Source of the DNA: a virus
Length of the DNA: 24,405 nucleotides
Reading direction: 5' to 3' (one strand)
Virus record (IMG/VR): IMGVR_UViG_3300030101_000986
Span: 1-24,405 of that record
Shown here: positions 4,036 to 23,415 of the stretch, piece after piece
Layout: every line of letters begins with the position of its first letter
Numbering within the stretch: position 1 is the first letter of the stretch
Notes under the pieces: generated by a model
The model's input: the letters and a program-made list of their open reading frames with translations, nothing else
What the model was told of the DNA's origin: nothing
The model's database searches: none
Translations under genes and position numbers: made by a program

Positions 4036-5052
4036 TTAATCAGTTTTGATAACAGGTAACGATATACATTTACAATTTATAATCTCTTTTGCTAAAGCAC
4101 CCATTGATGTATCACCGGGAAACATTAAGTATGAAGAACCCACAAGAAATGGTTTACTTTCTTCAATTGGTTTTCTAGAATAAATAGATGTAGCAGTTGC
4201 ATGAGTGTCTCTAATATTTGCACCGCCTGCTATCCATTTTTTAAATAAATTATCTTTTCCATATACATCTTGTGCTGATAAAGATATTGCATTATTAGCT
4301 GCAGCAGTTGTTTCTGTTTGTACAACTCTACGAGCCATCCACCTTGATTTAAATTTTAATCTTTTAGTTATCTCTTTTACTCTAGGCTCTAATCCTAATG
4401 ACATAAACTTTTCATCTGCTGTTAATTCTCTAATAACCTTTTTTAATGTGTCTCTAGCAACACCACTTACGGAAGTAACCTCAGAGGCTAATGCAAGATA
4501 ATTAGTTCTTTGTGTTGCATATCTATCCATACCATTTAATACAGTAGATTCTAAATTTTGCATTTCTCTTCTTGTTAGCTTTTGACCTCTTTCTATTTTA
4601 TCAAGTAATATATCTAACTCAACTCTTGATAGTTTCTCTACAAACAATTTAAAGTTTTTTCTATACCATAAATAAAATCTTAAACCAGTTTGACGATACA
4701 TCTGTTTATACATCTCTTTCATTTCTATTTCTTTAAAAAGAGTATTATAATTTGAGTTTGTGGCTGTATCTTCTAATCGATACATATCCATAGCCTTATT
4801 ATAATTACTCATATAGTATTTATATACTAATGGATAATTTTTCTTTTGTGCAATCTTAACTTGTTTGCCAAATTGATTGGCAATCTTCTGTTCATTGTTT
4901 TTTGTTTCAATCTTCTTTTGAGTAAGAAGATTACTACATACAGCATATCTTTGACTTCTGTTTGGGTATTCAGATAGCATAGTTTCATCTATAACACATC
5001 TGCTAATAAATTGATTATCAGATTCTTCTGCTCTTGGTTTTGGGAGAGGCAT
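4036..5052 (-). CDS. Mu F-like minor head / head morphogenesis protein
   Basis: A 338-residue protein with two recognisable parts. Residues 1-45 (PKPRAEESDNQFISRCVIDE ... SQRYAVCSNLL) form a small module also seen at the ends of other phage head proteins. The C-terminal ~100 residues carry the Mu F/SPP1 gp7 pattern: 'RRVVQTETTAAANNAIS', 'KKWIAGGANIRDTHA' and the cysteine/histidine end 'INCKCISLPV'. The middle is helical and lysine/tyrosine-rich. Members bind the portal and aid head assembly or DNA ejection. The start is coupled to the portal stop by TAATG. Confidence 0.85.
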   Translation of the reverse strand: MPLPKPRAEESDNQFISRCVIDETMLSEYPNRSQRYAVCSNLLTQKKIETKNNEQKIANQFGKQVKIAQKKNYPLVYKYYMSNYNKAMDMYRLEDTATNSNYNTLFKEIEMKEMYKQMYRQTGLRFYLWYRKNFKLFVEKLSRVELDILLDKIERGQKLTRREMQNLESTVLNGMDRYATQRTNYLALASEVTSVSGVARDTLKKVIRELTADEKFMSLGLEPRVKEITKRLKFKSRWMARRVVQTETTAAANNAISLSAQDVYGKDNLFKKWIAGGANIRDTHATATSIYSRKPIEESKPFLVGSSYLMFPGDTSMGALAKEIINCKCISLPVIKTD

Positions 5053-7340
5053 TATTCTTCACTTTTATCAATGATGCGTTTACACCATTTCCACATTGCA
5101 TCATCTTCTACTTTTGATGTTTTAATATCTCCACCCCATAAAGCAAATGAAACATCACCACATATTGGCTTACCTTTTTCATCTAGGTATTCGCCAGTTA
5201 CATATTCATGTGCTCTTGATAAATATGAAAATGTCTTTTTAACTATAGATAGTGATAGAGGTTCGCCTGCTATTAAATCTGTTGCCCTTCCTTTACCTAC
5301 TAAGGTTGCACAAGGGTTATTAAATTCTTCATTTATTGACTTACCTCTCTCTGCATTTTTTCTTACTGATTTTGGGTAATCATCATAAAATTCTTGTTTT
5401 CTCTCCTCATCATCTTCATAATATTTATCTACAGCCTCATTATACTCTTCATGTGTTTCAAAAGGCATATATACATCTTCACCATCCCAAGAATGTGAAT
5501 GTGAACCACTACCACCAAGTTCTTCTGCTCTTGCCTCTGCTTCTTCTTGTGTTGTAAATACATCGGTCATACCCGGTACCAATTTTTTATAATCTAAATT
5601 TTTTTTTGTTGACATTGGATGGCCTTCAGGTAGTAAGTCTTGGTCATGTCTACCACTTCTAAATCTTCCATTTCTAAGAGCATATAAGAATGAGTTAACT
5701 CTTGCCATTGCCCATTGCTCAGGTGAACTAACAGTTGGCCTTACTGATTGAGGATTAGTTCTATATGCACCAATACCTCTTTTATATACTGCATATAATG
5801 TTCTTACGTTAGTTTTTTTAGTTTTAGCATCTCCTACCTTTTCATTATGTTCCTCTACTTTTTTTTCTAATGCTTTTCTAAGTTTAGCAGTCATCTCTTG
5901 TTTTTGCTCTTCTTCTTCTTCAATTACCTCTTCAATAACCTCTTCTTCAATTACTTCTTCTTCTTCCTCAACCTCAGGAAAAGCAGTATCATTTGATATA
6001 CCCATATCTAAATCACTTATAGGTATTAAGTTAGAAGGCACTAAATACTCATCCATTACTGGGTTATCTTCATCTACACCATAGCCTTGTGCTTGTCTTT
6101 TTTCATTAGCAGTTAACCAAAAAGATTTAGAAAGAGTATCTACTAACTTTTCTTGCTCAGGCATTAACTCAGGTACAGCACTATAATCAAAGTCAAAATA
6201 TAAATCTTCACCAAACATTGGGACTAACCATCTGTTAATCTCATCCCTTACTTTATTTAATTCAGGTATAACTGCATTTGTAAATAACACCTTTCTTGCT
6301 GTTCTGTAATTATCATATGTAGTAGATTCAGTATTGTTTAATAATTGTACTGGTACTCCGTATATATTACATAAGTCTTTTACAGTTGCATTATAGGATT
6401 CTAATAATTGTAAATCAGATGTAGATAAACCGAAGTTTGTCCACGAAAACTTCTTACCAGTAATCATAACATCATTTGCAGATTTAGCACCTTGAAAGTT
6501 TCTTCTAAAAGCATCTTTCATTTGTTGTGCTTGCGTTGGTGTCAGTTGGTCATCATCAGGTGTAAGCATTCCTCTAGCTGATTGATTATGTAAAAATTTT
6601 AAATTTGTTTCTACTGCTTCATTGCTTGTAGTTAATACTCTCATGCCTGCTTGTATAGGTGACTGCCCATATAAATGTGAGCCATTACTAGAATAATCAG
6701 GATTAAAGTCTGCTATATGTAAGACCTCTTCCGCAGATAAATCATATTTATTATCTTGATACATCATAGTGTACTTAGATACTGGTTTAAATATACCATC
6801 TGACTTAATTTCTATAAGATGAGCAGGAAGATTGTATAGTTGATAATATATATTTTTGTTTTCTCCATTATCAGGTGATATGCCATATATATATCTATTA
6901 CCTGTTAATTTGCCAAAGCCAATCATCTCCTCTAAAAATACAGACCAAGATTGTGCAGGATTAGGTCTATCTAATAACTTACCTAATGCTGTATGCTCTA
7001 CTTCTTCTAATGTATGTTTTCTTAACAACTTTGCTTTTAAAACAGAATCCTCATTTAATGTGTTTGATGTTAATGCTTTGTATTCTTTCATAGCACCCTC
7101 ATCAACTTTTCTATAAATAGAATAAGGAACAGTAACAGCTGACTTAGAAATTAATTGTATTAAAGAGTATATTGTAGGGTTGTATGCATAACCCTTTTCT
7201 ATGTAATCATCATTATATTCATTATTTGAAATAGTATTATTACCTAAGAAGTTATATATGAATCTGTTATACGATTCATTTGTTTGTTGAGAATTAAATG
7301 CTTTTAATCCACTTCTTAATCTTTGGAGAAAACTTGCCAT
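5052..7340 (-). CDS. Portal protein, HK97 family, with long C-terminal extension
   Basis: A 762-residue protein. Residues 1 to about 445 are an HK97/SPP1-type portal ('YNPTIYSLIQLISKSAVTVP', 'LHNQSARGMLTPD', 'IYGVPVQLLNNTE', 'LTANEKRQAQGYG'). A very acidic linker follows at about 456-478. Residues from about 510 hold 'LYAVYKRGIGAYR...RPTVSSPEQWAMARVNSFL...DLLPEGHP'. A last part at about 660-755 has 'GRATDLIAGEPLSLSIVKK' and 'FALWGGD'. The last two modules are known in other phage head proteins, but their role is unclear. Typical portals are about 400-500 residues, so this one is clearly extended. A -7 box lies just upstream. Confidence 0.88.
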   Translation of the reverse strand: MASFLQRLRSGLKAFNSQQTNESYNRFIYNFLGNNTISNNEYNDDYIEKGYAYNPTIYSLIQLISKSAVTVPYSIYRKVDEGAMKEYKALTSNTLNEDSVLKAKLLRKHTLEEVEHTALGKLLDRPNPAQSWSVFLEEMIGFGKLTGNRYIYGISPDNGENKNIYYQLYNLPAHLIEIKSDGIFKPVSKYTMMYQDNKYDLSAEEVLHIADFNPDYSSNGSHLYGQSPIQAGMRVLTTSNEAVETNLKFLHNQSARGMLTPDDDQLTPTQAQQMKDAFRRNFQGAKSANDVMITGKKFSWTNFGLSTSDLQLLESYNATVKDLCNIYGVPVQLLNNTESTTYDNYRTARKVLFTNAVIPELNKVRDEINRWLVPMFGEDLYFDFDYSAVPELMPEQEKLVDTLSKSFWLTANEKRQAQGYGVDEDNPVMDEYLVPSNLIPISDLDMGISNDTAFPEVEEEEEVIEEEVIEEVIEEEEEQKQEMTAKLRKALEKKVEEHNEKVGDAKTKKTNVRTLYAVYKRGIGAYRTNPQSVRPTVSSPEQWAMARVNSFLYALRNGRFRSGRHDQDLLPEGHPMSTKKNLDYKKLVPGMTDVFTTQEEAEARAEELGGSGSHSHSWDGEDVYMPFETHEEYNEAVDKYYEDDEERKQEFYDDYPKSVRKNAERGKSINEEFNNPCATLVGKGRATDLIAGEPLSLSIVKKTFSYLSRAHEYVTGEYLDEKGKPICGDVSFALWGGDIKTSKVEDDAMWKWCKRIIDKSEE

Positions 7341-19991: not shown

Positions 19992-22208
19992 TTATCCTGT
20001 TACTCTTGCCCTAAAGTCTCCTGACCTTTCAAGTGCAAGTATTAAGTCTTGTCCTCTTAAAGTAAATTCACCAACTTGTTTTCCTTGACTTTGTTGCATT
20101 AATTGTGGTAATCTATCTAATGGAATTATAGCCTCTGCCCCTGCTTCACCTACAAGACCCATAGTTGGGCCAGTAACAATACCACCTTCTGCAAATGCTG
20201 TAAGACCTGCAAAAGCACCACCGACTATTGATGTTGCTGCCGCTATCATGCCCGGCAATGCAAAGAAACCACCCGGTATAAGTGCTGCGGTATTTGTTGC
20301 TGTTGCAATAGCACCTGCTTGTGCTACACCAAATTGAGTGGCAACTTGCATTTTAGAAACTGCTTTATTAATGATTGCACTAATTAATTGCTGAATACCT
20401 AATTGCACTAATATTTTAATCATACTTTTAATAAAACCTTGTATGCCCTCATTTGCTAACCCTAAACTATTTATTAACTGGTCTGACATAGCAACTAAAT
20501 GCTGTTGCACAATAGCTCCAACTTGTTGCATTTGTTGTGAAACCACTTGAAGCTGTTCTAACCTTTTCTGATTATGTTCTGTAAACATTGTATCAACTGA
20601 ATTTGATAAATCTTTATCAGCTTGTTGATTTATTTCATTTAATTGTTCCCTAAAAGATTTGACATCTTCTAGTTCTTTTTCTAAATCTGAAAAATCTATT
20701 ACATCGTCTTCATCAAGACCTAATGATTCTGCCTGAGAAACACCCCTTTGTGCATTTATATCATGAATCTTTTTTTCTATAAAAGTTAAATCACTTAAAA
20801 ACTGTTGAAATAATGGATGCGATTGTTTGAAACCAGCATTTAATAAATCTATCATAGATTTTTTCAATAGATTCATTTTTTCTGCAGATATATCTACTTC
20901 ATCTCCTAGAACTCTATGTTCATTATGTATATTTGCTAATTCTTCTGCATATTTCTTTTTAATTTCAGTAAGTTTTTCAGTATCAACTACATCTTCTTCA
21001 GTTAATTTAATACCTTCTTCTATTTCTTTATTAACTTTTTTTTGTTCTTCTAAGAAACTACGTACACTTTCACCAAGTGCATCCATGTTCTCTTTATATT
21101 TAACTGCTCTTTCATCAGTAAATAAATTATTTAATCTTTCTACAAAAAAAACTAAAGGTGGTAATATTACTGAACCTAATTCAGTTCCTGCTACCGCAAG
21201 TTCATTTAAAGCTTTAGTTAATTTAAAATCCGCTGATTCAGATGCAATTTCAAATGCAGTATTTGTAGCACCCAAAGAAACATTTAATTCATCAAATATT
21301 TCTCTTGTACCCTCTATATTAGAGCCGAGTAAATCCATTACCCCCATCATTGCTCTTGTACCACCGAAAACTTTATTTTGTGCATCTACATTACCCTCAA
21401 ATTTTTCTTTTAAAGTTTCAAGTGTTGCAAGTAATCCTTTTTCTCTGATTTGCCTCCTTAATCCTTCAGTCGATAGTTTTAATTCTGTAAGTTGTTTTTT
21501 AGATTCTGCAGTTGGTTTATTTAATGCAACTAATATATTTAGTAATTGTGTAGCTGCCTCACTTGCATTTGTACCAGTTCTAGACATAGATGCAAAAGCT
21601 GCACCGACTTCATTAAATGATACACCCATTGTAGATGCTATAGGAATAACTCTACCCATTGATGCTGCTAATTCACTTGCTTCTAATTTACCTTCTCTGA
21701 CTGATGCAGTAAGAATATCAGTTGCCTCGATTGCAGAAAGGTTTTCACTTCCATATGCGTTTAATGCAGACGTTGCTAAATCTGCAACAGTTTTTGTTTG
21801 ACCTAATCCTACTGCTGCTGCTTTCATTGATGCTTCTAAAACATCCATTGCCTCAGCACCTTCTAGACCTGCAGATGTTATAAAGAATAATGCATCAGCT
21901 GCATCATTAGCACTAACACCAGTTTCTTTTGCCATTATTTTGGCAGTTTCACCCATTCTGTTGACCTCATCACTAGCTACACCCACTAATGATTTAATTT
22001 GTGTCATTGATTTGTCGAATCCTCTAGCACTTCTTACAGCTTGAAACCCTGCTGCAGTTAATCCTCCAACTAATAAAAGTTTTAAACTACTAGCTGCCCC
22101 TTTAATTTGTTGTTGAAATCCATTAAGAGATTTTTGTGATTGGTTTATTGCACCCTTGAACCCTTTGGCATCTCCAGTAACTCGATAGTGTAATTGTTCT
22201 TGATTCAT
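19992..22208 (-). CDS. Tape measure protein, TP901 core
   Basis: A 738-residue protein. Residues about 70-310 match the TP901 tape-measure core ('AKETGVSANDAADALFFITS', 'SALNAYGSENLSAIEATDIL', 'KVFGGTRAMMGVMDLLGSNI'). A charged coiled-coil region (about 380-560) follows, then hydrophobic Ala/Gly/Ile-rich segments at about 610-690, and the typical end 'EGGIVTGPTMGLVGEAGAEA'. It sets tail length and is ejected to help DNA cross the envelope. At about 0.15 nm per residue this suggests a tail of about 110 nm. A -7 box lies upstream. Confidence 0.9.
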   Translation of the reverse strand: MNQEQLHYRVTGDAKGFKGAINQSQKSLNGFQQQIKGAASSLKLLLVGGLTAAGFQAVRSARGFDKSMTQIKSLVGVASDEVNRMGETAKIMAKETGVSANDAADALFFITSAGLEGAEAMDVLEASMKAAAVGLGQTKTVADLATSALNAYGSENLSAIEATDILTASVREGKLEASELAASMGRVIPIASTMGVSFNEVGAAFASMSRTGTNASEAATQLLNILVALNKPTAESKKQLTELKLSTEGLRRQIREKGLLATLETLKEKFEGNVDAQNKVFGGTRAMMGVMDLLGSNIEGTREIFDELNVSLGATNTAFEIASESADFKLTKALNELAVAGTELGSVILPPLVFFVERLNNLFTDERAVKYKENMDALGESVRSFLEEQKKVNKEIEEGIKLTEEDVVDTEKLTEIKKKYAEELANIHNEHRVLGDEVDISAEKMNLLKKSMIDLLNAGFKQSHPLFQQFLSDLTFIEKKIHDINAQRGVSQAESLGLDEDDVIDFSDLEKELEDVKSFREQLNEINQQADKDLSNSVDTMFTEHNQKRLEQLQVVSQQMQQVGAIVQQHLVAMSDQLINSLGLANEGIQGFIKSMIKILVQLGIQQLISAIINKAVSKMQVATQFGVAQAGAIATATNTAALIPGGFFALPGMIAAATSIVGGAFAGLTAFAEGGIVTGPTMGLVGEAGAEAIIPLDRLPQLMQQSQGKQVGEFTLRGQDLILALERSGDFRARVTG

Positions 22209-22238: not shown

Positions 22239-22951
22239 TTACAACTTACGTTTTTTTCCTTTCTTTTCTATAACATTCCACTTATCAATTAAGTTATCTA
22301 GTTCATCTTTAGATAGTGGTTTTGCTTGTGGTAAATTGCTTTTTTTATCTTGTGGTAATTTAAATAATTTTTCAGGTTTTATTCTTTGTGATGCTTTTTC
22401 TGCCCTTAGATTAATCATTATTGTTGCCAAATATCTTAATCTTTCCCATTCTATATTTTGATGTATTTGAAATGATTCTGAAAGCCTTATGTTTTCATTT
22501 AATGTATTCTTCCAAAAAGTATTAGGATTTATTCCACATTGTCCTATATAGAAATCAAGAATTAATTCCCAACCGTCTTTATCTACTTTTTTTTTTGGCT
22601 TTTTACGTTTCTCTCTATGCCCATATTAAGGTCGTTGCCTAATATTCTAGATTGAGAAAGTGTATTCATAACTTTGGTAAGTTGCTCAGAATCAAAATCT
22701 TCAAGCCAAGAGCCAACGTCATATATAGTATAATCAATATTGTTTTTTTGTTCTTGGTCATAAGCTATTAATCCTGAATATACTAATGCTCTAATTGTTG
22801 AAATGTTAATACCTGAAGTAAAAAATTTATCTAAGTCATTGAGACTTATATTTAATGTTTCTGTGAAGTGACACCAAAAATTCATAGAAAAATGGAGGGT
22901 TCTTTTTTCCCCTCCAATTTCTATTTCTACGTAACCTCTTTTGCTATTCAT
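22239..22951 (-). CDS. Tail assembly chaperone, long frameshifted form (G-T type)
   Basis: A -1 slip near 22586 joins the 122-residue short form to a second open frame, giving about 237 residues. The second frame has no ATG at its head: it is open from the A-run through 'VDKDGWELILDFYIGQCGIN', 'FWKNTLNENIRLSESF' and 'WERLRYLATIMINLRAEKAS' to the stop at 22239. A TTG at 22430 is not a convincing separate start. Two overlapping frames between major tail protein and tape measure, the second read only by frameshift, is the lambda G/GT arrangement. The long form recruits the tape measure and tail tube subunits. The intervening 150 bases are fully explained by it. Confidence 0.8.
22583..22951 (-). 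CDS. Tail assembly chaperone, short form (gpG-like)
   Basis: The 122-residue unshifted product, starting MNSKRGYVEIEIGGEKRTLH and containing 'NFWCHFTETLNISLNDLDKF' and 'IRALVYSGLIAYDQEQK', is a helical protein of the size and position of gpG-like chaperones. It ends Ser-Gln-Lys-Lys-Lys-stop, the lysines coming from the slippery A-run. It coats the tape measure protein during tail assembly. It follows the major tail protein by 38 bases. Confidence 0.8.
   Translation of the reverse strand: MNSKRGYVEIEIGGEKRTLHFSMNFWCHFTETLNISLNDLDKFFTSGINISTIRALVYSGLIAYDQEQKNNIDYTIYDVGSWLEDFDSEQLTKVMNTLSQSRILGNDLNMGIERNVKSQKKK
22586..22597 (-). other. Programmed -1 ribosomal frameshift site (C, ten A, G)
   Basis: On the minus strand the message reads CAA AAA AAA AAG TAG in the short frame. 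It holds an in-frame A AAA AAG heptamer, the classic -1 slippery site (as in E. coli dnaX), one codon before the stop. After a -1 slip the reading continues AAA GTA GAT AAA GAC and stays open for about 115 codons. No strong downstream hairpin is visible. Confidence 0.75.
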
Positions 22952-22989: not shown

Positions 22990-23415
22990 TTAATTTGAGC
23001 CAATAGAGACTGTACCAGTTGAAGAAAAACTTCCTGAGTATGTAACAGGTGCTTCACTATCTGCACCATATTCTATAGATGTTAAAAATCCATCACAAGA
23101 ATATACAACATCACCTGTAACTGCAGTTGCAAACTTACAATTAACTTTAGTTCTGTTGTTGATAAATACCATTAATTCTTCAATATTTGTTGTATCGTCG
23201 TAAGCAACAAAGCCATCAAAACTCATATCTAAACTTCTTACTCCTGCAATTATTTCTCTATAACCACCTGAGTCTTTTGAGGTCGCCTCAGGAGTATCTA
23301 AAGTATAACTAATTGAAGATGAAGTCGTATGACCAATAGTAGTGTAAGCACCACTATCTGCGTTTTTAATGCTTAATACAACTGTAGTTCCGTTCATTAA
23401 ACCAGTTGAAGCCAT
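22990..23415 (-). CDS. Major tail protein (TP901-1 type)
   Basis: A 141-residue, beta-rich tail-tube subunit. 'MASTGLMNGTTVVLSIKNAD', 'GHTTSSSISYTLDTPEATSK', 'GVRSLDMSFDGFVAYDD' and 'YSGSFSSTGTVS' form the pattern of the TP901-1 major tail family. It polymerises into hexameric rings around the tape measure. Its size is normal for this family. A -7 box at 23458-23451 and a following inverted repeat set it apart from its neighbours, in keeping with high expression. Confidence 0.88.
   Translation of the reverse strand: MASTGLMNGTTVVLSIKNADSGAYTTIGHTTSSSISYTLDTPEATSKDSGGYREIIAGVRSLDMSFDGFVAYDDTTNIEELMVFINNRTKVNCKFATAVTGDVVYSCDGFLTSIEYGADSEAPVTYSGSFSSTGTVSIGSN

Follow-up and report, generated by a model that had tools for sequence, protein, structure and literature searches.

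Putative -1 frameshifting at a slippery heptamer with an adjoining stop codon joins two candidate tail chaperone frames in a marine phage and its relatives

We analysed a stretch of 24,405 nt from a marine phage (IMG/VR record IMGVR_UViG_3300030101_000986, positions 1-24,405), which is referred to as the window. A phage tail module occupies part of its minus strand, in the order major tail protein, ORF A, ORF B and tape measure protein. The features relevant for the following are:

22990..23415, minus strand: major tail (tube) protein, upstream neighbour of the pair (PF06199, E 2.4e-16)
22583..22951, minus strand: ORF A, candidate 0-frame tail assembly chaperone of 122 aa, ending CAA AAA AAA AAG TAG
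22587..22596, minus strand: run of ten A on the coding strand (a T run on the plus strand), read from the sequence
22586..22592, minus strand: slippery heptamer A_AAA_AAG, read from the sequence and present in all close relatives but L046 (A_AAA_AAA)
22583..22585, minus strand: 0-frame stop codon TAG, adjoining the heptamer, read from the sequence
22239..22588, minus strand: ORF B, the -1 frame as read after a slip, 115 codons from GTA at 22586 to the stop TAA at 22241-22239
22428..22430, minus strand: TTG, the sole potential start that the -1 frame offers before its first ATG; not conserved
19992..22208, minus strand: tape measure protein, downstream neighbour of the pair (PF10145, E 7e-31, and many tape measure PHROGs)

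Elsewhere in the window, the portal ORF (5052-7340, minus strand, 762 aa) has a lengthy extension at its C-terminus, with DUF5824 and a weak match to DUF3721, and contains a run of nine A at 5599-5607.

On the minus strand the junction reads ...AAA AGC CAA AAA AAA AAG TAG ATA AAG..., which confirms the 3' end of ORF A as given in an earlier note on this DNA, including the run of ten A. The -1 frame, which the note had described as open for about 115 codons past the A run, is indeed open for 115 codons downstream of the junction and additionally for 13 codons upstream of it, i.e. from approximately 22625 to the stop at 22241-22239. At the regional base composition, 115 open codons have a chance probability of about 8e-6, and none of 20,000 shuffles yielded a frame as long. 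ATG, GTG and TTG are all absent from the -1 frame ahead of the TTG at 22430, which the note had named as the only non-ATG candidate start, and the junction peptide that it had predicted, KKKVDKDGW, is the correct translation.

The note had also taken the two frames for tail chaperones. This assignment gains support from the synteny (major tail, A, B, tape measure), from profile matches and from the predicted fold of A. ORF A matches phrog_2115 (tail protein) with an E value of 1.9e-8, as do all 17 aligned members. In BFVD, the AlphaFold model of A (pLDDT 80) retrieves proteins annotated as tail assembly chaperones (E 1e-3 to 2e-2, probability near 1). A further match is a Cellulophaga phage phi18:2 protein of 139 residues, which is also the length of ORF A in that phage family. 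PDB yielded no fold match. For ORF B, a weak match to Phage_TAC_6 (PF09550; 0.0014-0.011) stayed below the cut-off. We consider it quite probable from these sequence and model comparisons that the pair represents the tail assembly chaperones of a siphovirus-like phage.

To collect relatives, we used A, B and an alignment of B as scan queries, which yielded approximately 160 viral loci. Both halves were readable in 152 of these, comprising 84 distinct junctions and likewise 84 distinct fusion proteins. ORF B lies in the -1 frame relative to ORF A at all 152 loci, and the same relation holds in three further loci from genome bins. Hence both frames are kept in related phages, as the note had proposed to examine, and in none of the 84 distinct junctions did we find a stop codon interrupting the -1 frame or an ATG serving the second frame, either of which would have spoken against a programmed shift. 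An assembly error or a decayed gene, in which the true run would comprise 11 A and A and B would form a single gene, was considered since homopolymers are prone to error. However, the frame relation is identical in 152 contigs from many independent samples and also occurs at G_GGA_AAG, where there is no homopolymer. The comparison with relatives thus refutes this explanation, to which we attach practically no credence.

A heptamer of the type X_XXY_YYZ, in phase and located within the overlap, is present in 84 of 84 distinct junctions. Counted by distinct fusion protein (n = 84), GGGAAAG or GGGAAAA is found in 50 and A_AAA_AAG or A_AAA_AAA in 34. In the window's clade, a run of nine or ten A with an adjoining stop codon is present in all 31 distinct fusion proteins. 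Most of the distant relatives carry G_GGA_AAG at the place of the A run, mostly also with an adjoining stop. Outside the window's clade, L052 and L055/L063 possess the A-type heptamer, and the tree shows three changes of heptamer letter type.

Selection on the -1 frame was assessed between the junction and the TTG at 22430. Among close relatives, dN/dS in this stretch is approximately 0.10 in the -1 frame, as compared to 1.5 and 2.0 for the two alternative frames, indicating purifying selection on what the -1 frame encodes there. The part of B encoded ahead of the TTG comprises its conserved core, LDFYIGQ.GI.P..FW..T..E, and 17 of its 27 invariant residues. These data bear on the alternative that ORF B is translated on its own, either from the TTG at 22430 or by re-initiation at the stop codon of A. 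The TTG is present in the window, and the Cellulophaga phages phi10:1 and phi18:1 possess an ATGATG ahead of B and in its frame. However, the position of the TTG is occupied by Leu, Val or Ile codons in relatives, i.e. the start is not conserved, and initiation there would forfeit the 17 invariant residues and cut the single long helix (residues 21-60) that the model of B predicts across this position. Moreover, no ATG in the frame of B precedes the conserved LD[FY]Y motif in any of the 84 distinct junctions, and wherever the stop adjoins the heptamer the first -1 codon is GTA or ATA, but never GTG or ATG. A separate start of B was therefore rejected and appears highly improbable to us. Taken together with the frame relation and the heptamers at all 84 junctions, coding conservation ahead of the TTG supports the note's central proposal that a programmed -1 shift links the two tail chaperone frames.

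Next to this selection on the encoded protein, the nucleotide sequence at the junction is itself constrained. Synonymous differences were counted with a correction for amino acids in windows along the whole fusion. In both groups, synonymous variation in the fusion is lowest across codons -3 to +1, the five located at the heptamer, with observed/expected ratios of 0.07 in the window's clade and, independently, of 0.04 in the sister group carrying G_GGA_AAG. From codon +3 onward, variation amounts to 1.1-1.2 of the expectation. This signature points to a short cis element made up of little more than the heptamer and the codon that follows it.

In 75 of 84 distinct junctions and in 71 of 84 distinct proteins, the 0-frame stop codon adjoins a heptamer, whereas mean distances of 26 and 36 nt were reported for other sets of phages (PMC10885494). 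Shared descent accounts for part of this conservation. Such a placement could set the ratio of short form to fusion through competition with release factor. A preference for TAG over TAA in the window's group (27/31 versus approximately 17% elsewhere) was discarded as an indication because the Asp/Glu codon read in that position of the -1 frame acts as a confounder, and the lack of TGA at the site is expected since TGA is rare.

Most efficient bacterial frameshift sites have a stimulator. In the window's group, however, no unusual pseudoknot-free structure was detectable 3' of the site (mean z -0.9 over 40 nt and -0.6 over 70 nt) and RNAalifold found no consensus structure. The sister group exhibits a mild signal (mean z -1.8 over 70 nt), and a CCCA...TGGG stem recurs just 3' of the stop codon following G_GGA_AAG, e.g. 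in L104:587-631 and L127:1425-1469. Covariation in this CCA/TGG stem was no better than in shuffles, and no RNAalifold structure was obtained for the sister group; the stem possibly reflects just Ser/Thr-Gln-Leu and Trp codons. A conserved downstream hairpin was rejected for both groups. Concerning Shine-Dalgarno (SD)-like elements, none is present in the 20 bases 5' of the A run. SD-like motifs precede only 1 of 30 genes in the window; they are depleted before starts in the clade (5/142 versus 12.6 in shuffled upstream regions) and reach 6/156 versus 7.4 in shuffles in the sister group. The earlier impression that the site lacks an obvious hairpin or SD stimulator thus holds, the more so as synonymous constraint does not extend past the heptamer. 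Ribosomes of Bacteroidia occlude their anti-SD, yet the prfB frameshift of these bacteria keeps a perfect SD-like element (PMC8710568). SD-dependent recoding is therefore possible in hosts of this type, but the junction site does not appear to rely on it.

How might the two frames be joined? Very probably, judging from the conserved sequence features, the long chaperone form is made by a -1 slip on the run of ten A just ahead of the stop codon, and we infer that the ribosome slips, which is the agent we favour over RNA polymerase. In the proposed course, most ribosomes would translate ORF A and terminate at TAG. A minority would slip back by one base on A_AAA_AAG, where tRNA-Lys would re-pair from AAA AAG to AAA AAA; this slip could be a tandem one or could follow translocation, once the stop codon occupies the A site. 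The slipped ribosomes would decode GTA and go on to translate ORF B, which would yield a fusion with the sequence ...QKKKVDKDGW... at the joint. By analogy with lambda, the short form, made in excess, may coat the tape measure protein, while the fusion may recruit tail tube subunits. That such a ribosomal -1 slip of the lambda G/GT kind yields the A-B fusion is, in our judgement, a good deal more probable than any other reading of the locus. In its favour, the sister lineages carry in the same place G_GGA_AAG, which is a motif for ribosomal but not for polymerase slippage. A_AAA_AAG on its own ranks among the most shift-prone heptamers in E. coli, and runs of nine or more A are long enough for efficient slippage of bacterial RNA polymerase (PMC5009743).

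The latter property brings in the polymerase, and the note, too, had named slippage of the transcript. If RNA polymerase slipped on the nine or ten A, part of the mRNA would contain an extra A that places A and B in one frame, with no ribosomal slip being needed. Since the run comprises nine or ten A while the heptamer needs only six A and a G, slippage of the polymerase could do part or all of the work. At least nine A are kept in all 31 distinct proteins of the clade, and the final G of the heptamer is missing in two lineages, L046 (A10) and L052 (A9). There is also precedent in homologous dnaX genes, which, going by the title of Larsen 2000 (cited in PMC3711429), use one or the other mechanism. 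Furthermore, runs of at least nine A are avoided in other genes, being some two- to fourfold scarcer than expected in both phage groups: on the coding strand, 7 were counted versus 15.0 expected in the window's group and 2 versus 9.1 in the sister group, using synonymous shuffles of the contigs behind L177-L202 and the window, and 0 of 200 shuffles were as low in either group. Avoidance of this kind would be equally expected if the ribosome slips on such runs. Speaking against the polymerase, the sister lineages manage without an A run, a change of run length that alters the frame was seen in 0 of 31 distinct members of the clade despite the ease with which such runs mutate, and the overlapping heptamers A_AAA_AAA and A_AAA_AAG also account for the extra A. 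We hold polymerase slippage to be unlikely, albeit deserving some weight. It would entail that the family switched mechanism, the relatives with G_GGA_AAG being ribosomal and the window's lineage using polymerase. Such a switch, in hosts without SD pairing and with the adjoining stop replacing a stimulator, strikes us as rather doubtful. As a single shift gives the same peptide QKKKV by either mechanism, protein data alone cannot tell them apart.

The only database phages matching A or B are Cellulophaga phages. In near-identical members of this set, the run at approximately 1490-1515 of each locus comprises ten A in phi17:1 (L169) and nine A in phi18:1 and phi12:1 (L170 and L171), and this difference flips B from the -1 to the +1 frame. 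Gene coordinates in phi18:2 and phi12:3 (L175 and L176) are the same as in phi18:1 and phi12:1, i.e. of the type with nine A. The difference in run length could reflect tolerance of slippage, which would suit the polymerase, or separate starts, as the form with nine A has ATGATG ahead of B, but it could also be a homopolymer sequencing error. In phi10:1 (L084, 3992-4691), B of a homologous pair is in +1, and the end of A is overlapped by an ATGATG beside a run of eight A; A is unannotated in this record, the numbering of which skips gp085. Distant Cellulophaga phages with the second frame in +1 and ATGATG ahead of it thus count against the ribosomal -1 reading.

Neither the major tail protein nor the large tail protein matched anything in searches of phage databases. 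The terminase of the window is closest to phages of Bacteroides and Phocaeicola, and together with the restriction of A and B matches to Cellulophaga phages this makes a host among the Bacteroidota the best inference, based on distant phage relatives. Genome bins were discarded as a guide to the host because three contigs fell into bins of three unrelated groups. These contigs, L085, L086 and L087, which carry the same chaperone pair, were binned with a gammaproteobacterium, a Rhodobiaceae member and a woesearchaeote, respectively, and are probably mis-binned phage contigs.

Frameshifting in tail chaperone genes is textbook knowledge. In lambda, the heptamer of gpG/gpGT is G_GGA_AAG; the short form coats the tape measure protein and the fusion recruits tail tube subunits. 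The pair described here resembles gpG/gpGT in its position between major tail and tape measure genes, its overlapping frames, the startless second frame and the -1 direction. The heptamer of lambda is identical to that of most relatives, while the window's lineage has A_AAA_AAG within nine or ten A. In contrast to lambda, the stop codon adjoins the heptamer in most members, and no sequence similarity to lambda was found. Conserved frame, heptamer, constraint, position and the fold of A argue for a -1 recoding site of the lambda G/GT kind: the site has every sequence-level feature of that system that could be tested conclusively, the homology of B being weak. In Caulobacter phage Seuss, a tape-measure chaperone pair (AKU43546/AKU43547) is annotated with ribosomal slippage just ahead of the tape measure gene. 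The Seuss protein shows a weak fold match to A but belongs to a different sequence family, and the record annotates ribosome binding sites for most genes, unlike the SD-poor phages studied here.

Similarities also extend beyond phages. The dnaX site of E. coli has an SD-like element and a hairpin as stimulators, and its shift makes the short product, whereas no stimulator was found at the junction here. The heptamer, A_AAA_AAG, is the same (PMC5009743). Transcriptional slippage in dnaX of Thermus thermophilus occurs on a run of nine, comparable to the at least nine A on the mRNA here (PMC5009743), but relatives here keep the -1 frame without a run. The -1 site of Rous sarcoma virus has an RNA structure, whereas none was found here. 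In this unrelated virus, as in our phages, the next codon is a stop (PMC4373837).

The kind of site is therefore known; new are its reduction to heptamer and stop codon, its occurrence in phages without SD signals and the switch in heptamer type. Records of cultured relatives list such a pair as two independent hypothetical genes whose starts differ, and the second gene of the Cellulophaga loci alone has three different annotated starts. Tail chaperone frameshift sites have been studied mostly in phages of hosts that use SD sequences. More than 150 contigs with a site cut down to heptamer and stop, in phages that lack SD signals, offer a natural and clean test of the minimal needs of a bacterial -1 site, and the same family allows the role of the stop codon itself in setting the ratio of the two products to be tested.
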